Below the pieces are notes generated by a model. It saw nothing but the letters and a program-made list of their open reading frames with translations. It was not told where the DNA came from and did not search any database. DNA of 55,341 nt from Flavobacteriaceae bacterium. GTDB taxonomy: Bacteria > Bacteroidota > Bacteroidia > Flavobacteriales > Flavobacteriaceae. The position numbers and the translations under genes are program-made. This document shows positions 2,288 through 11,219 of the stretch, piece after piece (position 1 is the first letter of the stretch; each line of letters starts with the position of its first letter). Location: the NCBI GenBank assembly GCA_002719315.1, contig PBHD01000001.1:53439-108779 (forward strand), read 5' to 3'.

Positions 2288-3442
2288 ATGACAAAAAATT
2301 CATCTAAACCTTTTGAAAATCAAATTTCGAACGTTTTTGACGAAGTTCATGCTTTTTGGATTGCAGGAGGCAGTTGTGATGGCTGTTCTATTGCTACTGT
2401 AGGTGCAACGAGCCCTTCAGTTGAAAATCTTCTTAATGGAGCTATACCTGGAGCTGCTAAAGTAATTTTGCATCATCCTGTATTAGCTACTAACGTTGGA
2501 GAAGAATTTATAAAACCTTTTCGATTAGCGGCCAAAGGAGAATTAGGTGCTCCATTCGTAGTTTTATGCGAAGGTTCAATTATGGACGAGAGTATAGCAG
2601 CAGAGAGTGGAGGTTATTGGTCCGGTCTTGGAGCTGATGAAGATGAGAATGGAGATCCGCAGCCCATACCTTCTTCAAGTTGGGTGACGAGAATGTCAGA
2701 ACACGCTGCAGCTGTAGTTGCAGTAGGTACTTGTGCAACATGGGGAGGAATTCCAGCAGCGGCAAATAATCCTACGAATTCAGTAAGTGTAATGGATTTA
2801 TTAGGCGAAGATTATCGAAGTACTTTGGGACTTCCTGTAGTTAATATTCCAGGATGCGCACCTCAAGGTGATAATATTACCGAGACTATTGTATCTGTAT
2901 TAATGTTTTTAAATGGGTTGACGCCCTTACCTGAGTTTGATGAATTAGGTCGTCCGTCTTGGTTATTTGATGAGACTGTGCATAGAGGGTGCACTAGAGC
3001 GGGTTTCTACGAAGAGGGTAATTTTGCTGAAGAACACGGAGATAAGGAATGCCTTGTAGAAGTAGGTTGTTGGGGTCCAGTTGTACAATGTAACATCAAT
3101 AAAAGAGGTGCTATTAATAATGCTGGTGGATGTATGAATGTTGGGGCACCTTGTATAGGATGTACCATGCCTGGTTTTCCTGATAGCTTCGCCCCTTTTT
3201 ATAAAACTCCTCCTGGGACAATTGTTTCTTCTAATATTTCTAGAGTAACCGGAACAGTTATGCGAAATTTAAGGGAAATGTCAATGGCGTTTCAAAATAA
3301 AACTCCAAAATGGAAAAAAGATGGGCATGTACCTTCAGGATGGGGTCATGTTAAAAAGCCTAACGTTTTAGATAATATTGTACATTATGCTTATGAAAAA
3401 ATGCAATTTAGTGATAGTCCTAAACCTGGTTCTAAAAAATAA
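2288..3442 (+). CDS. [NiFe]-hydrogenase small subunit (group 1h/1l-like uptake enzyme)
   Basis: The electron-transfer subunit of an H2-uptake [NiFe]-hydrogenase, 384 residues from the ATG at 2288. It carries the Fe-S clusters that pass electrons from the Ni-Fe site. Visible proximal-cluster elements are GGSCDGCS (C30, C33), GTCATWGG and IPGCAPQ; the C-terminal half has the further cysteine set HRGCTRAGFYEEG, VGCWGPVVQC, GGCMNVGAPCIGC. There is no N-terminal twin-arginine signal and no C-terminal membrane helix, unlike classical membrane-bound group 1 enzymes. An upstream in-frame ATG at 2237 would add a 17-residue hydrophobic stretch without a Tat motif; I prefer 2288. It opens the rightward operon. 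The closest groups I can recall are 1h and 1l, where this subunit is often called HhyS or HylS; the subgroup is inferred. Confidence 0.93.
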   Translation: MTKNSSKPFENQISNVFDEVHAFWIAGGSCDGCSIATVGATSPSVENLLNGAIPGAAKVILHHPVLATNVGEEFIKPFRLAAKGELGAPFVVLCEGSIMDESIAAESGGYWSGLGADEDENGDPQPIPSSSWVTRMSEHAAAVVAVGTCATWGGIPAAANNPTNSVSVMDLLGEDYRSTLGLPVVNIPGCAPQGDNITETIVSVLMFLNGLTPLPEFDELGRPSWLFDETVHRGCTRAGFYEEGNFAEEHGDKECLVEVGCWGPVVQCNINKRGAINNAGGCMNVGAPCIGCTMPGFPDSFAPFYKTPPGTIVSSNISRVTGTVMRNLREMSMAFQNKTPKWKKDGHVPSGWGHVKKPNVLDNIVHYAYEKMQFSDSPKPGSKK

Positions 3443-3450
3443 TTATTAAC

Positions 3451-3726
3451 ATGGAAAATGAAGCACTTTTTAATGAATGGTTGATTGGACTTGTATTGGT
3501 TTCGGCAATAGTTGTAATCGCTGCAATACTTTTAATTTTAGTATTCTTGGCGGCAAGGAGAATCTTAAGATTGGCTGTAGCTGCTTTGAAAATAGTAACT
3601 CAAATAAAGAATAACACTAATGCTATATGGGAATTGGAAAATACTAACAAGGTAGCCTTGAATATTAAAAATGAAGCAGAGGCAATTGAAGAGCATGCTA
3701 CTTTAGTAGCTGATGCATTAAAATAA
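3451..3726 (+). CDS. Hydrogenase-associated single-pass membrane protein 1
   Basis: A 91-residue protein of unknown family, eight bases after the small-subunit stop. It has one strongly hydrophobic helix at about residues 11-35, then a basic stretch (ARRILR) and a polar helical tail of about 50 residues with coiled-coil-like spacing. Its tail (NNTNAIWELENTNKVA...ADALK) aligns with those of the next four small proteins at an [x]-T-x-x-hydrophobic position and an A-L end, suggesting a tandem paralogous family. The basic residues after the helix suggest a cytoplasmic tail (positive-inside rule). It is probably a membrane anchor or scaffold subunit of the hydrogenase. Confidence 0.75.
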   Translation: MENEALFNEWLIGLVLVSAIVVIAAILLILVFLAARRILRLAVAALKIVTQIKNNTNAIWELENTNKVALNIKNEAEAIEEHATLVADALK

Positions 3727-3742
3727 TAAGTAAATAAAAAAT

Positions 3743-4060
3743 ATGAGTACAGGAATACAATTATGGATACTATCACTGATTATTGCCTTGGTAGTTATTG
3801 GTGTCGTAGCATTTCTTCTAAATTTAGTTAAGAAAACTGCCCTTGAGATTGATGAAACTGTATCAAATATATGGACTCAAGGAAAACTTACGGCAAACAA
3901 CACTATCCACATACCTTTGTTTTTAACGAAAACGAATCAAGTGGCAGGTGAAATATTAAAATCAGCTTTAGCTATTGTTGGTGGCTCAAAGGCAATTACA
4001 CAACATATAGAAAGTTGCCCTGGATGTCCTCATTGCATACTAGAAGAATCTAAAAATTAA
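3743..4060 (+). CDS. Hydrogenase-associated membrane protein 2 with CxxCxxC tail
   Basis: A 105-residue single-pass protein, 16 bases after protein 1 and the second of the tandem set. The membrane helix spans about residues 6-30 and is followed by LVKK and a helical tail with the NNTIHIP...TNQVAGEIL pattern shared with protein 1. Unlike its four neighbours it ends in a cysteine cluster, SCPGCPHC, with three cysteines spaced C-x2-C-x2-C, which could bind a metal or Fe-S cluster or form a contact with the hydrogenase. It has no known domain that I recognise. It is a candidate electron-transfer or docking subunit. Confidence 0.75.
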   Translation: MSTGIQLWILSLIIALVVIGVVAFLLNLVKKTALEIDETVSNIWTQGKLTANNTIHIPLFLTKTNQVAGEILKSALAIVGGSKAITQHIESCPGCPHCILEESKN

Positions 4061-4065
4061 ACTAT

Positions 4066-4356
4066 ATGAGTATTATATTAATAATTATTACCATTTTAGC
4101 CGTACTCCTTTTAGTATATGTTTTGGTACATTATCTTAGGGCGATTATTAAAACACTCACTAGTATTGGTGGAAATGGCTCAAGCTCTTTAGCTAAATTA
4201 AGATTAGGCCTTAGAGCAATCGAAACTGAGACCGGACACTTACCCACTCAGGCAACTAAACTAAATGGTGGTTTAACTGAAGTGGCTGGAGGACTTAAAA
4301 TAGTGGATGACCAATTAGAAGCATCAATAAATGCAGCTTTAAAACAAAAAGTATAA
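4066..4356 (+). CDS. Hydrogenase-associated membrane protein 3
   Basis: A 96-residue single-pass protein, five bases after protein 2. The helix spans about residues 3-27, then a polar tail rich in Gly, Leu and Asn. The tail segment ETGHLPTQATKLNGGL...DDQLEASINAALK aligns clearly with protein 5 (DDTGPLEEKVDVINGAL...DSHLVSIAKVLK), making this pair the closest relatives in the set. The tail predicts as two amphipathic helices joined at the NGG/AGG turns. Its role is inferred from position: anchor or stalk for the hydrogenase. Confidence 0.75.
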   Translation: MSIILIIITILAVLLLVYVLVHYLRAIIKTLTSIGGNGSSSLAKLRLGLRAIETETGHLPTQATKLNGGLTEVAGGLKIVDDQLEASINAALKQKV

Positions 4357-4357
4357 C

Positions 4358-4648
4358 ATGGATATTTTAAACATCTTATGGTTGGTTTTGTTAATAGTAA
4401 CAGTACTTATCTTACCTTATCTAATTCATTTGTTACATAAAACATGGCTTGCTTCAAAATCGATTGAACGCTATTTAAAAGAAATGAAAGAGGCGGGCAT
4501 AGGAGTAGCAGGAAATACAGAGCATGTGAAGGCTTTGGATGATACTATTGGTGTTGCTAGTGGAATTCTAAAAGTTGCCGGGTCTATCAATGAGAATTCA
4601 GAAACATTAAAAACAGCTTTGGCTTCACGAGCAGAAAAATTAAATTGA
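4358..4648 (+). CDS. Hydrogenase-associated membrane protein 4
   Basis: A 96-residue single-pass protein one base after the stop of protein 3, so tightly co-translated. The hydrophobic helix lies at about residues 4-26, then a basic segment (HKTWLASKSIERYLKE) and a tail with GNTEHVKALDDTIGVASGILK and a final LKTAL, matching the family pattern. It has no cysteines and no recognised domain. Its stop overlaps the alternative TTG start of protein 5. Confidence 0.75.
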   Translation: MDILNILWLVLLIVTVLILPYLIHLLHKTWLASKSIERYLKEMKEAGIGVAGNTEHVKALDDTIGVASGILKVAGSINENSETLKTALASRAEKLN

Positions 4649-4653
4649 ATTTT

Positions 4654-4929
4654 ATGAATTCATCAACTCTTTTTATAGCTACCATTATCATAGTTGCACT
4701 TTTAGTGCTGGTATTGGTTATATATTTAGTACTTATAATAATTGCACTTAGAAGAGCTGGCACCCATTTAAAAGGTTTAGCCGGAGGATTGCAAAAAATA
4801 CAGGATGACACAGGACCTTTGGAAGAAAAAGTAGATGTAATCAATGGTGCTTTAAAACAATTAAATGGTGGGTTATCTTCGGTTGATTCTCATTTAGTTT
4901 CCATAGCTAAAGTCCTAAAATTAGTTTAA
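4654..4929 (+). CDS. Hydrogenase-associated membrane protein 5
   Basis: The last of the five small membrane proteins, 91 residues from the ATG at 4654; an in-frame TTG at 4645 overlapping the previous stop would add three residues. A long hydrophobic helix covers about residues 5-30, followed by ALRRAG and a helical tail with the GGLQKI-x3-TG-PL and NGGL elements also seen in protein 3. The gene ends 20 bases before the large subunit. Placing five such genes between the two catalytic subunits strongly suggests they are structural subunits of the same complex. Confidence 0.75.
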   Translation: MNSSTLFIATIIIVALLVLVLVIYLVLIIIALRRAGTHLKGLAGGLQKIQDDTGPLEEKVDVINGALKQLNGGLSSVDSHLVSIAKVLKLV

Positions 4930-4949: not shown

Positions 4950-6824
4950 ATGTGTTTTAAAAATTTACCCATAGCATTTGATAAAGAAGGAAATGCTTAT
5001 TTAAAAGAGGGTCTAGCTGATCCTTATGAGCATAAAGTGGTTGATCTTGGAAAGGAACAAGATAAGCTTAAAGGTTTGCTTGAACGTAACGGATTTATTA
5101 GAAATATCGATTATGATCCTGTGACTAGAGTAGCTGGTGCTTTGGCTTTTCACAGCGTTGTTGATTTAGAAAAAAAGAAAGTGCTGTCAACAAATTCAAT
5201 GGCTACACTTTTTCGTGGTTATGAGGTTATTTTAAAAGGACGAGATCCTAGAGATGCAGCATATATTAGTAGTAGAGCCTGTGGGGTATGTGGCGGTGTT
5301 CATGCTACCACAGCTGCCTTGGCAATTGAAATGGCATTAGGAATTAAACCACCGCCATTGGGCATTGTTATGCGCAATATTTTATTGGCTATTGAATACA
5401 TGTATGATCACCCTTTACACTTATTCTTGTTGGCTGGTCCTGATTATTCAGAAGAATTGGTTCGAGAGACAAATCCTGAACTTCTAGATATTGCAGCATC
5501 GACAAAAGCAAAAAATAAGGATGTACATGGATACAATACCATATTGGATATAATGAAAGATTTGAACCCGCTTAAAGGTAAATTATACCTTGAGGCTTTG
5601 AGTATGACTCGTGTTGCTCGAGAAGCGTACGTTCTAATTGGAGGTAAATATCCTCATCCTCAGTCTGTTGTGCCTGGAGGGCTTTCAGTTACAGTAAATG
5701 CTTCTATGCTTAATGAAGTTTACAGTAAGTTGATAAAGTTTTTTGACTACAGTAAGAAAGTTACGGGTATTTGGGATGATGTTTTTGATTTTTTCTTAGA
5801 CAGTAATCCTGAATATGCTAAATGTGGTGTTCGACCAGCAACTATGATGGATACTGGTGTTTGGGATAGGCCAGACCATTATGATGCTACATTTAATAAT
5901 TGTGACAAGTGGGGGGAGGCAAGATGGTCAACACCTGGAGTTTTAGTTGATGGTAAGGTTGTTACTACAAAGCTTACCGAATTGAACGCGGGAATAGAAG
6001 AGTTTGTTGAACATTCCTACTATAAAAAATGGGATGGACATCGTTTTAAAGAAGATGCAAATGGAATGCCATTGAGTCCAAATCATCCTTGGAACAAAGA
6101 AACAATTCCTAAACCAGGAAAACAAAGCTGGAAAGATCGTTATAGCTGGGATACATCTCCTACTTGGGACAGAATGCCTATGGAAGCTGGTGCTTACACC
6201 AGAATGTACATGACCGCAAAAGCCCAAAAAGCACCGGCAAGCAAATTTTTGGAAAATACCGGAACTAGTATGAAAATTCATGTTCCAAAACATTTTCTCC
6301 CAGAAAAAACCTTGGAATGGAAAATTCCTAAACATTGGAATGCTTTCGAACGTAACCGAGCAAGGGCATATTGTTTACCTTATTCTACCATGGTTGCCTT
6401 AGAAAATTGGATGATGGCTATGGATTTAATCAAAAATGGAAATACAAAAGTTAGTGTGCCTTACGAAATCCCTAAAAAAGGTACACATATTGGATTTGGT
6501 GCATGGGGCGCTGGTAGAGGTTTCCTTTCTCACCATCTTATAGTCGAGAATGGACTCATCGAAAATTATCAAATTATTACGCCTTCCACTTTAAATGCTG
6601 CACCAAGGACTCCTTGGGGAGAAATGGGACCATATGAAGAAGCAGTACTAAACACGCCTCTACTTGAAAAATTTGACAAACCTGAAGATTATAAAGGAAT
6701 AGATATTTTGAGGGCCATAAGAAGCTTCGACCCTTGTATGCCATGTACTACACATATTATGTCTAAGGATAGCGACCATATGGTAACACGTGAAGTAACA
6801 ACCTGTGCTTGCGGTGTTGAATAA
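4950..6824 (+). CDS. [NiFe]-hydrogenase large (catalytic) subunit
   Basis: The Ni-Fe(CN)2CO-binding subunit that splits H2, 624 residues. The N-terminal L1 motif RACGVCGGVH supplies two Ni ligands (C111, C114). The C-terminal L2 motif DPCMPCTTH supplies the others (C596, C599) and ends at H602, the usual maturation cleavage site. The predicted 21-22 residue C-terminal extension would be removed by the peptidase encoded at 8870. Preceding helix motifs such as DPVTRVAG are intact, so the active site looks complete. Codon use includes CGT/CGA arginines, rare in the flanking core genes and consistent with transfer. The motif style and length resemble groups 1h/1l (HhyL/HylL); subgroup is inferred. 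Confidence 0.95.
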   Translation: MCFKNLPIAFDKEGNAYLKEGLADPYEHKVVDLGKEQDKLKGLLERNGFIRNIDYDPVTRVAGALAFHSVVDLEKKKVLSTNSMATLFRGYEVILKGRDPRDAAYISSRACGVCGGVHATTAALAIEMALGIKPPPLGIVMRNILLAIEYMYDHPLHLFLLAGPDYSEELVRETNPELLDIAASTKAKNKDVHGYNTILDIMKDLNPLKGKLYLEALSMTRVAREAYVLIGGKYPHPQSVVPGGLSVTVNASMLNEVYSKLIKFFDYSKKVTGIWDDVFDFFLDSNPEYAKCGVRPATMMDTGVWDRPDHYDATFNNCDKWGEARWSTPGVLVDGKVVTTKLTELNAGIEEFVEHSYYKKWDGHRFKEDANGMPLSPNHPWNKETIPKPGKQSWKDRYSWDTSPTWDRMPMEAGAYTRMYMTAKAQKAPASKFLENTGTSMKIHVPKHFLPEKTLEWKIPKHWNAFERNRARAYCLPYSTMVALENWMMAMDLIKNGNTKVSVPYEIPKKGTHIGFGAWGAGRGFLSHHLIVENGLIENYQIITPSTLNAAPRTPWGEMGPYEEAVLNTPLLEKFDKPEDYKGIDILRAIRSFDPCMPCTTHIMSKDSDHMVTREVTTCACGVE

Positions 6825-7365
6825 AAATGTTCTGATTGGCACAGTAGGTTATCATTTACTAAGTAACCATTCAGTGGGTCCAATTCTGCTTCCTCAGATA
6901 CGATCTATTCCATGGGATGGTTCTGTTACTGTGGAAGAAATGAACTGGGGACCTATTGCAATCGTTCAATATTTTCAGAGCTTAAAAAAACCTTTTGATA
7001 GAGTGATATTTTTAGTAGCAATTGAAAGACCTGAAAGAAATATTGGAGATATTTCTGTTTTTCAATGGATGGGGTACTTACCTTTTGAAAAACAAATTCA
7101 AGCTTGTATTGGTGATGCTGCAACTGGTGTAATTTCTATAGAAAATCTTTTGGTGATTGGTGAGCATTTCAAAATTTGGCCAGAAGAAGTTTTTTTAGTA
7201 GATGTTGAGCCTGGAGCTGAACAATCTGGTGAACACTTAACTGCTGAGGTTGATGCAAAAATTCCTGAAATTTTGCGTATATTGAAAGATTTAGAACACA
7301 AACCAACTACTTCTTTAGCTTCTAAAAAGTTAAGAGGAGACACCTTATTTGATAAAAGTTTATGA
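6805..7365 (+). CDS. Degenerate HyaD/HupD-like maturation peptidase homologue
   Basis: A protein of up to 186 residues with the fold signature of hydrogenase maturation peptidases, but an altered active site. The N-terminal segment NVLIGTVGYHLLSNHSVGP corresponds to the family's GxGN-x3-xDDGxG loop, with the Asn replaced by Tyr and the Asp-Glu/Asp Ni-binding pair replaced by Asn-His. A later VDVEPGAEQSGEHL may correspond to the family's C-terminal portion. It overlaps the large subunit; GTG 6805, GTG 6814 or TTG 6817 could be the start, and the last best matches the family's usual N-terminus. It may be a chaperone-like pseudo-peptidase, or a divergent enzyme using other ligands. The intact paralogue is at 8870. 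Confidence 0.65.
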   Translation: MLAVLNKNVLIGTVGYHLLSNHSVGPILLPQIRSIPWDGSVTVEEMNWGPIAIVQYFQSLKKPFDRVIFLVAIERPERNIGDISVFQWMGYLPFEKQIQACIGDAATGVISIENLLVIGEHFKIWPEEVFLVDVEPGAEQSGEHLTAEVDAKIPEILRILKDLEHKPTTSLASKKLRGDTLFDKSL

Positions 7366-7760
7366 AAAATGAAACGATAGAAGACAGTGCGTTACGCTGT
7401 TTATTTTGGAAGGATGAAATTCTTCAACTCCTTTACTGGATGCATGGTGAAGGTATGGGTAGTGAAATAAGTTTACCCCAAATGCTTCCTTTTTTGAATA
7501 CATCTTATCAAAATTTGGAGTATCATCTAAATAAAATAACGAATTCAGGATTATTACTAACGTTGGAGAAAAACGGAATCACTCATTATAAGTTTTCCGA
7601 GTCTGGTATGAAAGAAGGGGGACGAAAATTTTCCGAAGCTTTTCAAGGGATGCAAAAAGCGGGACACGGAGAGTGTGGTCCTGATTGCGAATTTTGTTAT
7701 GGTGCCGACGGTGTTAAGCTTGAAAACTGTGTCCATAACTGTGCTAATAGTTCCCACTAA
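7362..7760 (+). CDS. Cysteine-rich winged-helix-like protein
   Basis: A 132-residue protein whose start overlaps the previous stop by four bases (ATGA). Residues 10-80 read like a winged helix: SLPQMLPFLNTSYQNLEYHLNKITNSGLL then a wing (LEKNGITHYKFSESG), similar to ArsR/MarR-type folds. The C-terminus is a cysteine cluster: C105-x3-C109-x2-C112, then C123-x3-C127 with nearby histidines, probably a metal site. It could be a metal-responsive regulator, or a metallochaperone standing in for HypA, whose zinc finger is also cysteine-based; hypA is absent here. I do not recognise a named family. Confidence 0.65.
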   Translation: MKNETIEDSALRCLFWKDEILQLLYWMHGEGMGSEISLPQMLPFLNTSYQNLEYHLNKITNSGLLLTLEKNGITHYKFSESGMKEGGRKFSEAFQGMQKAGHGECGPDCEFCYGADGVKLENCVHNCANSSH

Positions 7761-8053
7761 TGAAACCTGTTCTATTCAATAACATCGAATTCAAAGAAAT
7801 TATGGAGTATGTGCAGGAACTAGTTAAGCAAACTGAAAAAATTCCGGATAAAGAAACTCAGGAGCTAACAGCTGAGATATTGAAGTATTATGATTTATTA
7901 CATCGTGAACCACTTTCAAGAATTCTTAAAGCCATTGAAAGTAGTTACCCTGATTTAAAAGATGCATTAAAGTTAGATTATACTATAAATAAACTATTAG
8001 AACTTTATGACTTTGAAAATTCTAACTCAAAAAGTATTTCAAAAAAAAGCTAG
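7760..8053 (+). CDS. Small helical protein of hydrogenase operon
   Basis: A 97-residue, entirely helical, acidic protein, overlapping the previous stop by one base. The pattern VQELVKQTEKIPDKETQELTAEIL...LLELYDF resembles, from memory, the N-terminal helical domain of the NifU-like proteins in actinobacterial-type (group 1h/2a) hydrogenase operons, here as a stand-alone protein without a NifU cysteine domain. That likeness is inference. If correct, it argues for a shared assembly or electron-transfer partner across high-affinity hydrogenases. Function unknown. Confidence 0.6.
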   Translation: MKPVLFNNIEFKEIMEYVQELVKQTEKIPDKETQELTAEILKYYDLLHREPLSRILKAIESSYPDLKDALKLDYTINKLLELYDFENSNSKSISKKS

Positions 8054-8864
8054 CTTCTCACTTATTTTATTAATTGGTATCCTTAACATTAAATGCAAAG
8101 GTGATCATAAAAAAAGTAACTTTGAGACACAAACAGGGCCTTTCATTTCCAATTTTAGCGAAGCTGATAAATTAGTAGATAAAACTATTATTCATTCTGG
8201 TGGAATGAAAAATTGGACATCTAAAAAAAGTTTGTCCTATATGAAAACGATTCATAGTTATGATTCTTTAGGGACTCTAATTCGTAGTGTAAATCAATCA
8301 CATAAATATCAATTAAAACCTTTTTTCAAAGCAAATATAAGTTGGGAGCAAAATGGAAAAAAACATGAGATAATAAATAATGGCAATCAATCATGGAAAT
8401 TGGTCGATGGAAAAATACAGTTAGATGAAACTTCCGTTAATAGTGCTTGGAACTCTTCATATGGTTCTCATTATATTTTGAGTATGCCATTTAAATTTAA
8501 AGATCCTGGAACTATAATACGCTATGAAGGCTTAGATACCCTATTAAATAATAGAATAGTGCATAAACTTAGGATAGATTACGAAAAGGGAGCTGGAAGT
8601 TCCGGAGGAATGCACACATGGTATTATTTTTTGAATAAGGAGACCTATCAATTTGAGGCAACCTTTTTAGACTATGGTGAGGGATACTCTTATACAGATT
8701 ACGAAACCTTTGTTAAAATTGATGATATTCTGCTAACAAAGGAAAGAAAACTTTATTCTTCTAATAAAAACATGGAGTTAAAGTATCTTAAAACCCAATT
8801 TAAGAATTTAAATTTTGAATTTGATTTAAAATTACCTGAAGAATTATTTAAAGTTAACAATTAG
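8007..8864 (+). CDS. Periplasmic lipoprotein-like protein (LolA-fold/DUF6503-like), hydrogenase-linked
   Basis: A 285-residue protein whose start overlaps the 97-residue gene by 47 bases. An N-terminal hydrophobic stretch (FSLILLIGILNIKC) ends at a cysteine, compatible with a lipoprotein signal although the lipobox is not canonical. The mature part is beta-rich, with GGMKNWTSKKSLSY, LSMPFKFKDPG and repeated aromatic strands, resembling LolA-like or DUF6503-type periplasmic domains. It is clearly related to the protein at 9457 (GGLDTWNGIKN, FSMPFKLKD). Its role is unknown; it may carry lipid or metal, or help position the complex. Confidence 0.65.
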   Translation: MTLKILTQKVFQKKASFSLILLIGILNIKCKGDHKKSNFETQTGPFISNFSEADKLVDKTIIHSGGMKNWTSKKSLSYMKTIHSYDSLGTLIRSVNQSHKYQLKPFFKANISWEQNGKKHEIINNGNQSWKLVDGKIQLDETSVNSAWNSSYGSHYILSMPFKFKDPGTIIRYEGLDTLLNNRIVHKLRIDYEKGAGSSGGMHTWYYFLNKETYQFEATFLDYGEGYSYTDYETFVKIDDILLTKERKLYSSNKNMELKYLKTQFKNLNFEFDLKLPEELFKVNN

Positions 8865-8869
8865 ATCTT

Positions 8870-9391
8870 TTGGTTGCTATTATAAAAAAAATCCTAATTG
8901 CAGGAGTTGGAAATGAATTAAAGCAAGATGATGCATTTGGTATCGAATTCGTCAAAAAATTCCAAAATATTGTTTCACATTTGAGTCGTATTATTGTAAT
9001 GGAGGTTGGTATAGGAGGTATTCATTTGGTACAAGAATTGCATGCGCAATATGATATTTTGATTTTAGTAGATTCCGTAGCGTGGGGAAAGGAAGCTGGA
9101 CATATTTACTTCCGAGAAATGGAAAAAGTTTCTGATATTGAGAAAATGCCAGTTTTTGAAAAAAGAACATTTCTTGCGGATATGCATTATACCAATCCTA
9201 TTAGAGCATTGATGTTAGCAAAGGCATTAAAGGTATTGCCTAAAGAAGTATATATCTTGGGTTGTGAAGCTGCAAAACATGATGATTTTGCAATTGGAAT
9301 GACGGATGTGGTTGAAAATGCAATACCTAAAGCGATCATTCTATTGAAAAATTGGTTGATTACAAAAAAGTTAGCATCCTTTAATGAGTAA
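8870..9391 (+). CDS. [NiFe]-hydrogenase maturation peptidase (HyaD/HupD family)
   Basis: An endopeptidase that trims the C-terminal extension of the large subunit once nickel is inserted; 173 residues from a TTG start. The Ni-sensing residues are all present: the loop GVGNELKQDDAFG (the Asp pair), the VDSVAWG aspartate near residue 68, and the MHYTNP histidine near residue 105. That makes it the likely active enzyme, in contrast to the degenerate homologue at 6805. It sits six bases after the lipoprotein-like gene. The substrate is almost certainly the large subunit at 4950. Confidence 0.88.
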   Translation: MVAIIKKILIAGVGNELKQDDAFGIEFVKKFQNIVSHLSRIIVMEVGIGGIHLVQELHAQYDILILVDSVAWGKEAGHIYFREMEKVSDIEKMPVFEKRTFLADMHYTNPIRALMLAKALKVLPKEVYILGCEAAKHDDFAIGMTDVVENAIPKAIILLKNWLITKKLASFNE

Positions 9392-9456: not shown

Positions 9457-10440
9457 ATGAATCATTACATTAAGTCAGCTAAAAGCTCAAAACAAATTCA
9501 GAAAGATTCGAAGAAAAAAACTCCTTGGTGGTTTTATCTAAATGTAAAAGATTTGGTGAACCCCATTAAAATTAGACGTTTGCAAATATTGTCTTTTGGT
9601 GCATTATTATTTGTGCTAGTTATTGGAGGAATTTATACATGGGAAAACTATCTAAGGGAGCCTACTGGAGCTGAGTTTGTTGATGAGATTGTTAATGCAG
9701 CTGGTGGTCTTGATACATGGAATGGAATTAAAAACGGACAATTTACTCGAACTCATAATTTATATGATGATACAGGAAAATTATTAAAGGTCACTAAAGA
9801 GACCTTTTACTTCAAAAGAGGTAAAGAAGGCTTAAAATTACAAGTGAAATCTGTTGGAAGTGACAAAATTGAAGTAATTTTAGGAAAGGATGCTGAAGGT
9901 TTTTGGGCGACAAAAGATAATGTATCAGTTGACCCAAGAGAGGCAGCTGATCATAAGGGAATGATGTGCGATTCTAAATTTTGTGAGCCTGATTGTTCTA
10001 TGTCAATGGCATTCTTTAGATTTTCAATGCCTTTTAAATTAAAAGATAATGGAGTGCATGCTAGTATAGCTTCAACAGGATTCAATATTGCTGAATTAAA
10101 TTTGTTGGAAAGTTCTGAAAAAGAACCAACATTACTCGATATATCTTATGACCCTGAAGTAGGAAAGGATAAATGGAGATTTTATATAGATCCTCAAGAT
10201 AAATTAATTCACAAAGTTGAATATTATAATAAATCTGATAACGAAGAGATTCGTCCTGAAGAAATTTATTGGACTGATCACAAAACCGTTGATGGCATTA
10301 CTTTTAGCCACCGTTGGATTAGGTATTGGCCTAATGGTAAGGTTATGGATGAATATATTTATTCAGACGTTAATTTAGATGATAAATTGTCTGATGAATT
10401 TTTTATTAGAAAAATTCCCTCAGAAATTGCACTTAGATAA
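9457..10440 (+). CDS. Membrane-anchored periplasmic protein related to the 8007 product
   Basis: A 327-residue protein with a cytoplasmic basic N-terminus, a single transmembrane helix at about residues 43-63 and a periplasmic domain. The domain shares GG-x2-x-W, TG(K)LLKV-like and SMPFKLKD segments with the protein at 8007, so the two are paralogues. It has a distinct cysteine trio, C171-x4-C176-x3-C180 (CDSKFCEPDC), absent from its paralogue, which could bind metal or be redox active. It is the last gene of the rightward operon; its stop is two bases from the stop of the convergent CooC-like gene. Function unknown. Confidence 0.65.
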   Translation: MNHYIKSAKSSKQIQKDSKKKTPWWFYLNVKDLVNPIKIRRLQILSFGALLFVLVIGGIYTWENYLREPTGAEFVDEIVNAAGGLDTWNGIKNGQFTRTHNLYDDTGKLLKVTKETFYFKRGKEGLKLQVKSVGSDKIEVILGKDAEGFWATKDNVSVDPREAADHKGMMCDSKFCEPDCSMSMAFFRFSMPFKLKDNGVHASIASTGFNIAELNLLESSEKEPTLLDISYDPEVGKDKWRFYIDPQDKLIHKVEYYNKSDNEEIRPEEIYWTDHKTVDGITFSHRWIRYWPNGKVMDEYIYSDVNLDDKLSDEFFIRKIPSEIALR

Positions 10441-10442
10441 AT

Positions 10443-11219
10443 TTAAGATAGGCCTGTTAAAATAGAATCACGCAATTTTTCTATGGCTTTTACAAATTTG
10501 GCTTCAGGGTTATAATCCATCACTGATTTTCCTATTAAGTCTGCCGCCATTACTTCTTTGTCAAATGGAACGAATACTGCAATTGGAAGGTTAATTTTAG
10601 CACAATACTCCCTTATTGCCATTTCATCCTCTTTGGTCTGTGCCTTATTGGCAATCGCCTCTACTTGACCAATACCCAATTGCTTTGCCATTTCGGCAAA
10701 TCGGGAGGCAGCTTCTAAAGACCTATAATAAGGCTCAACAACGGTATAGATTTTATCTACATATTTAGACGTTCCTCGTTTCATATGCTCTAAAGATGCC
10801 TCTGTATCTAAGATCATAATTTGCCCTTTTTCAGAGGTTAGAGCTGAATTTACCAATTCACGAACCACGGTATGTGAACCGCACATGCAACCTGTCCCTG
10901 CCTTTTCAGGTTTACCAATCATAAGTAAGGTTACATTTTCTGTTGCCCTTTGTCCATAGGTTTCTAATACTTCTTGAAAAGGAATTTTTACCTGAAATTT
11001 CCATTTACCATCTCCTATCTCTACTCTTTCGATGATGTCTGAGCTTAAATTTGGTGAACCTTCGTCTGACTTATCAATACCTAAAACAATGGAAAGGTTG
11101 GGATTAGGGTCACCATCAATTGCAAGAACTTTATCCCCTTTGGCTCCGAAAATCCGACAAAGTGTTCCACTAATTGTAGTTTTACCAACACCGCCTTTAC
11201 CTGTGATTGCTATTTTCAT
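10443..11219 (-). CDS. CooC-like nickel-insertion ATPase (SIMIBI P-loop)
   Basis: A 258-residue ATPase of the MinD/NifH-like (SIMIBI) family closest to CooC, which inserts nickel into CO dehydrogenase. The deviant P-loop GKGGVGKTT is at residues 7-15, the switch I aspartate lies in DGDPNP, and the CooC-type metal-binding pair C111-x-C113 is in GTGCMCGSHTVVREL. No CO dehydrogenase gene is in the window; the only nickel enzyme nearby is the hydrogenase. Since hypB, the usual GTPase for nickel insertion, is also absent, this protein is the best candidate to replace it. It is the last gene of the leftward hyp operon. Confidence 0.85.
   Translation of the reverse strand: MKIAITGKGGVGKTTISGTLCRIFGAKGDKVLAIDGDPNPNLSIVLGIDKSDEGSPNLSSDIIERVEIGDGKWKFQVKIPFQEVLETYGQRATENVTLLMIGKPEKAGTGCMCGSHTVVRELVNSALTSEKGQIMILDTEASLEHMKRGTSKYVDKIYTVVEPYYRSLEAASRFAEMAKQLGIGQVEAIANKAQTKEDEMAIREYCAKINLPIAVFVPFDKEVMAADLIGKSVMDYNPEAKFVKAIEKLRDSILTGLS

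Follow-up and report, generated by a model that had tools for sequence, protein, structure and literature searches.

Group 1l and group 1m [NiFe]-hydrogenases have been reported in Actinobacterial genomes. According to the part of PMC9561532 consulted, which cites Ortiz et al. 2021 (PNAS) on group 1l, group 1l clusters encode HylTM1-5, five short predicted transmembrane proteins, between the small- and large-subunit genes; a group 1m cluster has two small single-helix proteins (82-92 residues) and adjacent small- and large-subunit genes. The Huc accessory protein HucM, as described in the consulted part of PMC10017518, is encoded by a single gene upstream of hucS, has 188 residues, is present in four copies per complex and is peripherally associated with the membrane; its amphipathic coiled-coil part links the enzyme to the membrane and is proposed to allow the passage of menaquinone. 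Here we analysed a stretch of 55,341 nucleotides (the window) from a Flavobacteriaceae bacterium (assembly GCA_002719315.1, contig PBHD01000001.1, positions 53,439 to 108,779 of the forward strand), which carries a group 1l hydrogenase locus with five small genes between the subunit genes. We liken them to HylTM1-5 by description, through the same placement and enzyme group, rather than by sequence. The five proteins fall into two subfamilies, A and B, in the order AABAB, and on the reading that we favour with modest confidence they would assemble as a hetero-oligomeric coiled-coil stalk through which a cytoplasmic hydrogenase is anchored at the membrane. The locus is laid out as follows:

2288..3442, plus strand: [NiFe]-hydrogenase small subunit (PF14720/PF01058); no twin-arginine, no membrane helix
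3451..3726, plus strand: HylTM1-like protein, subfamily A (A1), 91 residues; predicted single helix 2-90
3743..4060, plus strand: HylTM2-like protein, subfamily A (A2), 105 residues
4004..4036, plus strand: H-x3-C-x2-C-P-x-C motif near the A2 C-terminus, residues 88-98; likely metal site (inferred)
4066..4356, plus strand: HylTM3-like protein, subfamily B (B1), 96 residues
4358..4648, plus strand: HylTM4-like protein, subfamily A (A3), 96 residues
4654..4929, plus strand: HylTM5-like protein, subfamily B (B2), 91 residues; predicted single helix 3-89; weak DUF948 similarity
4950..6824, plus strand: group 1l [NiFe]-hydrogenase large subunit (PF00374; tree), 624 residues
4950..5009, plus strand: large-subunit N-terminal arm, residues 1-20; candidate docking element (inferred)

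As the initial annotation had described, the small genes encode five tandem single-pass membrane proteins (91, 105, 96, 96 and 91 residues, all on the plus strand) between the two subunit genes. The gaps from the small subunit through genes 1-5 to the large subunit are 8, 16, 5, 1, 5 and 20 nucleotides, as expected for a single transcription unit. The start of gene 5 was placed at the ATG at 4654, where the list of open reading frames has a TTG at 4645; for the small subunit the ATG at 2288 was preferred, an upstream ATG at 2237 being possible. None of the five small proteins passed the Pfam or NCBIfam cut-offs. In comparisons with the relatives L003 and L007, all five have a ratio of nonsynonymous to synonymous substitution rates (dN/dS) of 0.05-0.24, and they look like real genes under purifying selection.

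Profile-profile comparison, which the initial annotation had suggested as a check, revealed relationships by the tails within each subfamily and at full length between the two. Tail-only profiles gave probabilities of 93.5% (genes 1 and 2), 95.4% (1 and 4), 94.8% (2 and 4) and 95.8% (3 and 5), with scores of 37-43 compared to maxima of 14.8-17.9 in 60 column shuffles (0/60 as high), whereas the six A-B tail pairs reached 0.3-4.3%. The kinship claimed for the five thus stands, but five equal paralogues were rejected, as the tail profiles separate genes 1, 2 and 4 (A) from genes 3 and 5 (B). Genes 3 and 5 do match best, as had been noticed, but genes 1, 2 and 4 are nearly as close to one another. 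Loci L030 and L031, which have two genes each, are divided in the same manner. When slot-specific profiles built from Bacteroidota were run on the remaining loci, the first gene of L030/L031 gave E-values of 3e-14 to 2e-20 with slots 1, 2 and 4 and no better than 2e-3 with slots 3 and 5. The second gave 3e-10 to 7e-12 with slots 3 and 5 and no better than 1 with the others, each gene thus being matched convincingly on one side only. Between the subfamilies, full-length deep profiles built from 91 A rows and 65 B rows aligned with 94.6% probability over 86 columns (score 42.6). None of 100 constrained shuffles, in which columns were kept within membrane-segment or heptad classes and the order inside the membrane helix was destroyed, scored as high (best 27.0), and the reversed B profile matched A at 1.4%. 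A and B probably constitute one superfamily on these profiles, the proof being strong only within each of them.

A first iterative search, which returned 159 proteins for each of the five models, was not used as evidence, because membrane helices can drive such drift. Weak similarity to DUF948 (PF06103), at E <= 0.01, was seen for 7 of 17 subfamily B members (lowest E 2.6e-5) and for none of 18 subfamily A members; gene 5 scored 23.1 bits, short of the Pfam gathering score of 37.2. Subfamily B also matched designed coiled coils from the PDB (8qae being the best, at 2.5e-14), but we attribute this to composition; it is consistent with a coiled coil without indicating anything further. The tail motif first proposed, [N/D/E]T-x-x-hydrophobic, is common in a loose form: [NDEH][TS]xx[ILVPM] occurs within residues 41-75 in 146 of 148 orthologues (29/29, 28/28, 28/30, 30/30 and 31/31 for genes 1-5), a pattern so loose that its chance rate was not worked out. 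The proposed final A-L of the tails proved not to be general, gene 2 ending near CPGCPHC and gene 5 in AKVLKLV. These orthologue counts, here and below, leave out the partial genes 2 of L005 and L019 and 4 of L002, plus L022; L021 and L022 give identical readings for all five proteins, the loci not being identical in full.

A large-subunit search led to 37 loci, with A/B genes in 34, including the contig fragments L002 and L005. The set is complete in 32 loci: 29 of these carry five genes, always ordered AABAB (counting L022, and L019 with its incomplete gene 2), L030 and L031 carry two (AB), and L033 carries four. Five copies, initially thought unusual, are therefore the common form, in agreement with the group 1l arrangement published as HylTM1-5 (PMC9561532, consulted part). 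The gene set is spread over Bacteroidota, SAR324, Pseudomonadota and Chloroflexota records; cultured organisms among the carriers include Hymenobacter roseosalivarius and strains of Maribacter and Flagellimonas. ABAB was found between the small and large subunits in L085, L087, L088, L090 and L095 (the genome of L033), and also in L089, where the small subunit is off the contig. In L092, ABAB precedes the small subunit, its first gene is split across two frames, and the adjoining large-subunit gene is broken by stops. Further AABAB sets are those of L084 and L086 and of two loci belonging to the phylum of a SAR324 genome, L126 and L127. A plasmid collection queried with the L031 A and B proteins gave no match.

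In the genome that contains the window, the A model retrieved genes 2, 4 and 1 at E <= 9e-29 (next match 0.4), and the B model retrieved genes 5 and 3 at E <= 3e-30 (next, gene 2 at 0.04). Seventeen further genomes were reached via the loci. In the 15 that bear the set, every A-model match at E <= 0.01 lies by position inside it, the weakest four, at E 1e-3 to 5e-3, being B genes in slot 5 of these sets; no A-model match was obtained in the other two, the genomes of L035 and L037. In broader sampling at E <= 1e-3, matches to the A model came from 12 of 400 genomes in the phylum of G061 and from 2 of 395 Bacteroidota, one of them the window's own; at E <= 1e-4 they came from 1 of 398 genomes in the phylum of G064, namely G064 itself, and from 4 of 52 in that of G070. 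All 11 convincing A genomes of the 400-genome sample also match the B model; marginal single A-model matches in G274, set aside from this count, and in G754 were taken as chance. Six genomes gave weak B-only matches (best 2.3e-6).

We built a large-subunit tree of 47 rows, leaving out L092 because of the stops in its large subunit; the midpoint root separates three plasmid-borne group 1h loci from all other rows. The rows, like those of the conservation analysis below, are tblastn-matched portions of large subunits rather than whole genes. ABAB rows come first, then AB, and then a single group of all AABAB rows, which also contains L035-L037; one ABAB fork is not strongly supported (94/78). 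The set-type labels change 4 times on this tree, compared to a possible minimum of 3 and an average of 13.4 when shuffled. The simplest reading would be a single origin of the five-gene set, which may later have moved between phyla together with the enzyme; AB may be either the ancestral form or a product of reduction. The three loci without A/B genes, L035-L037, have 49-51% identical large subunits on a long branch within the pseudomonadotal sequences. No small subunit was detected near them by tblastn within the available stretch, and they have TASGIC for RACGVC, so that the first Cys of the N-terminal nickel-binding pair is lost. On these grounds, they look like decayed or repurposed relatives.

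The large subunit of the window lies inside the group 1l clade of this tree, where it groups with Bacteroidota sequences. Farther out in the same clade are Hymenobacter roseosalivarius, whose hydrogenase we take to be group 1l, and Marinovum algicola FF3. The latter enzyme is called group 1l in the consulted part of PMC10305171. The locus thus combines the group 1l large-subunit clade with the five short transmembrane genes between the subunit genes. Among solved sequences, the nearest for both subunits is the group 1h enzyme Cupriavidus necator AH (PDB 5aa5; E 5.7e-106 for the small and 4.9e-137 for the large subunit), well ahead of every other, Huc included. As initially stated, the enzyme has no twin-arginine translocation (Tat) signal, no membrane helix and no detected cytochrome b: there is no twin-arginine within the first 40 residues of either subunit and no strongly hydrophobic 19-mer in either (maximum mean hydropathy 1.43 in the small and 1.33 in the large subunit), and the cytochrome b family Ni_hydr_CYTB has 0 matches in the 89%-complete draft of its genome. 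The 5aa5 enzyme is likewise not known to have a Tat signal.

Unlike the locus described here, the three plasmid-borne group 1h loci have adjacent small- and large-subunit genes, no A/B match and no group 1l-type N-terminal arm. This arm, residues 1-20 of the large subunit, has a mean conservation of 81% in 40 stalk-bearing large subunits, and nothing like it was seen in the first residues of the three group 1h large subunits compared, the genes of which have 17, 16 and 0 annotated codons before the points matching residues 48, 53 and 34, respectively. Present in the former and absent from the latter, the arm is a candidate docking element. At the other end of the large subunit, residues 614-622 (REVTTCACG; 6789-6815) are strongly conserved in the 40 group 1l rows. 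They lie beyond the protease cut that we would expect after DPCMPCTTH, and such conservation is odd for a discarded tail.

Each of the small proteins consists of a single N-terminal membrane helix and an amphipathic tail that is probably cytoplasmic, in line with the anatomy proposed initially. The hydrophobic period of the tails is 3.40, 3.50, 3.55, 3.45 and 3.50 residues for genes 1-5, and an equally strong period arose in only 2, 1, 2, 18 and 2 of 2000 shuffles, respectively; the periodicity is heptad-like, that of a coiled coil. More positive charge follows than precedes the membrane helix in 127 of 148 proteins (29/29, 20/28, 19/30, 29/30 and 30/31 for genes 1-5), which would place the tails on the same, cytoplasmic side as the enzyme; the signal is clear for genes 1, 4 and 5. 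AlphaFold2 predicted one helix spanning residues 3-89 for gene 5, with a predicted local distance difference test score (pLDDT) of 84.5 and a predicted template modelling score (pTM) of 0.39, and one spanning residues 2-90 for gene 1 (pLDDT 85.9, pTM 0.45). A Foldseek search with the gene 5 model returned no match, as expected for a lone helix. An isolated helix bearing a hydrophobic stripe should be unstable on its own, an argument in favour of oligomers. The core face is composed of 60% Leu, 17% Ile and 10% Val in gene 5, and of 31% Ala, 26% Leu, 13% Ile and 13% Asn in gene 1; the difference is compatible with mixed A-B packing.

A hetero-oligomeric stalk, as put forward in the initial annotation, is the most economical reading of these features. 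HylTM1-5 would be the products of repeated duplication of an A-type and a B-type single-pass protein. Their membrane helices would assemble into a bundle. The A and B tails, 55-71 residues long, would wind in parallel into a hetero-oligomeric coiled coil, a cytoplasmic stalk on the order of 80-100 angstroms by which the paired small and large subunits would be kept against the inner face of the membrane. Similar to HucM, these are predicted alpha-helical accessory proteins encoded beside the subunits, with a probable amphipathic coiled-coil part. As to a stalk of the HucM kind, the observations are the heptad-like period of the five tails and the one-helix models, computed as single chains, for two of the proteins. 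They differ from HucM in being five paralogues, each with a membrane helix, encoded between the subunit genes. Peripheral association of the HucM type was not found, since orthologues of all five slots have a strongly hydrophobic 19-mer near the N-terminus. No HucM-named chain appeared among the PDB matches at E <= 1 of the A profile (all 21) or the B profile (the best 60 of 81), the presence of a HucM chain in the file being unconfirmed and HucM itself not having been aligned.

In a weaker extension of the stalk model, the hydrophobic core of bundle and stalk would also give quinone access to the enzyme. The idea arises because neither a cytochrome b nor another recognised quinone-reducing partner turned up with the enzyme, and it would be the solution proposed for HucM, with different proteins; we regard quinone passage through the stalk as tentative and on balance doubtful. 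Alternatively, the HylTM bundle might only tether, and perhaps cluster, hydrogenase copies, while electrons leave through another protein, such as a separate quinone reductase or the Cys-rich protein encoded at 7362-7760. This is a possibility to be taken seriously, albeit not the likelier one: no result here demands a quinone path, the tail cores are mostly Leu, Ile and Ala, like those of a closed coiled coil, and the 20 aligned sequences of the Cys-rich protein retain a C-terminal stretch rich in His and Cys (an HGEC-like element followed by more Cys). However, there is no recognised quinone-reactive partner beside the enzyme and no Ni_hydr_CYTB in the genome, although a partner could be missing from the 89%-complete assembly or have been missed, as other quinone reductases were not searched for. 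The Cys-rich protein itself has 132 residues and no Pfam match; its H-G-E-C-like C-terminal stretch is conserved between the window and 19 relatives, and a metal or electron-carrier role is possible.

Several observations count against the stalk model or its evolutionary premise. The positive-inside signal is weak for genes 2 and 3. The structure models cover genes 1 and 5 only, from 17-18 sequences, and a single helix is what would be expected from many amphipathic stretches. Of the six A-B tail pairs, only 1-5 and 2-5 exceed all 60 free shuffles, and pair 4-5 was equalled by 16 of 60. Under a heptad-preserving shuffle, tail-only A-B similarity is no better than chance (20/100 as high), and tail-only kinship between A and B was not accepted; the common origin of A and B therefore leans on the membrane half. 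The conserved protein at 7362-7760 could serve as an alternative electron relay. Moreover, two A/B sets stand away from any hydrogenase in the stretch inspected. In G130, the AABAB set of L093 has no hydrogenase subunit within the 17 kb inspected, and the large subunit (~40% identical) lies on a separate 10.6 kb contig without A/B genes. In G307, L091 has nine A/B genes and no hydrogenase subunit on its 14.7 kb contig; they run (5142-9200) as AABAB followed by A, B, A and B in frames of 294, 208, 212 and 336 codons, and two contig ends of this genome carry a 24-residue piece of a large subunit. These sets may represent broken assemblies, remnants or another use. In L093 (7709-10879), the AABAB set is followed by a membrane protein of 529 residues with two similar halves and no clear Pfam match, a relative of which is encoded in L033 (2449-3150), ~2.5 kb upstream of the small subunit.

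The C-terminal motif of gene 2 raises another possibility, an electron-relay stalk in which H-x3-C-x2-C-P-x-C would bind an iron-sulfur cluster or a metal at the top of the stalk and relay electrons from the small subunit. This motif ends 26 of 28 gene-2 orthologues and none of the 120 proteins of the other four slots, and it recurs in the AABAB sets of L086, L091 and L093; it plausibly forms a metal site at the distal end of the stalk. Against a relay, it is absent from L026 and L027, from the divergent SAR324-type L126 and L127 and from the AB and ABAB proteins read, and no second redox site lies below it to reach the membrane. His residues between the N-terminus and the end of the membrane segment were counted in 0/29, 7/28, 9/30, 21/30 and 8/31 orthologues of slots 1-5, which makes paired haem ligands unlikely, though conceivable for gene 4. 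We consider an electron-relay stalk improbable.

Maturation genes lie downstream, together with further neighbours:

8870..9391, plus strand: hydrogenase maturation protease (TIGR00072, E 1.9e-25; PF01750)
10443-11219: CooC/MinD-like ATPase gene (PF01656; CooC label assigned by eye)
11241: HypC (PF01455)

Their proximity would suit assembly or membrane-insertion helpers, which would act outside the finished enzyme. However, the five genes are positioned between the structural genes, A and B are kept together, and the tails are predicted coiled coils, all of which are atypical for maturation factors; we consider a helper role improbable. A tblastn relative of the ATPase is found in 27 of 33 A/B-bearing loci (L003-L034 and L038), on either strand and either side. 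The proteins encoded at 8007-8864 and 9457-10440 are kept in the Bacteroidota relatives; both match DUF6503 just above the cut-off (24.0 and 24.1 compared to 22.9 bits) and have a short region of similarity in common (BLASTP E 2e-4), so that they are probably paralogues.

Returning to the anchoring stalk that we favour, a bolder generalisation would be a modular kit, in which AB, ABAB and AABAB sets each build a hetero-oligomeric tube feeding quinone to the enzyme, the metal site of gene 2 meets the enzyme in the five-gene form, and the whole constitutes a second, independently evolved conduit beside HucM, possibly used also by enzymes outside group 1l, as the sets of G130 and G307 might suggest. 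We consider this scheme speculative and, taken as a whole, rather unlikely. The single-helix pair of group 1m may perhaps be an AB pair, which is a guess.

The five-gene set between the subunit genes is already in print, and what is added here is its internal A/B structure. The consulted part of PMC9561532 does not mention the two subfamilies, the AB and ABAB sets, a heptad analysis or the Cys motif, and no account of the paralogy, the AB/ABAB versions or a stalk role was found in the open-licence literature searched, in the portions consulted and supplements excluded. Among the hydrogenase lineages of oligotrophic desert soils, group 1l is the most abundant (PMC8528921), and it dominates subantarctic seawater samples (PMC10305171), according to the consulted parts of these articles. 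How a cytoplasmic enzyme without cytochrome b would transfer electrons to the respiratory chain is a question that the A/B scheme makes testable: it predicts which chains pair, suggests that two genes may suffice in the AB relatives, and points to the Cys motif of gene 2 and the N-terminal arm of the large subunit as the residues of interest.

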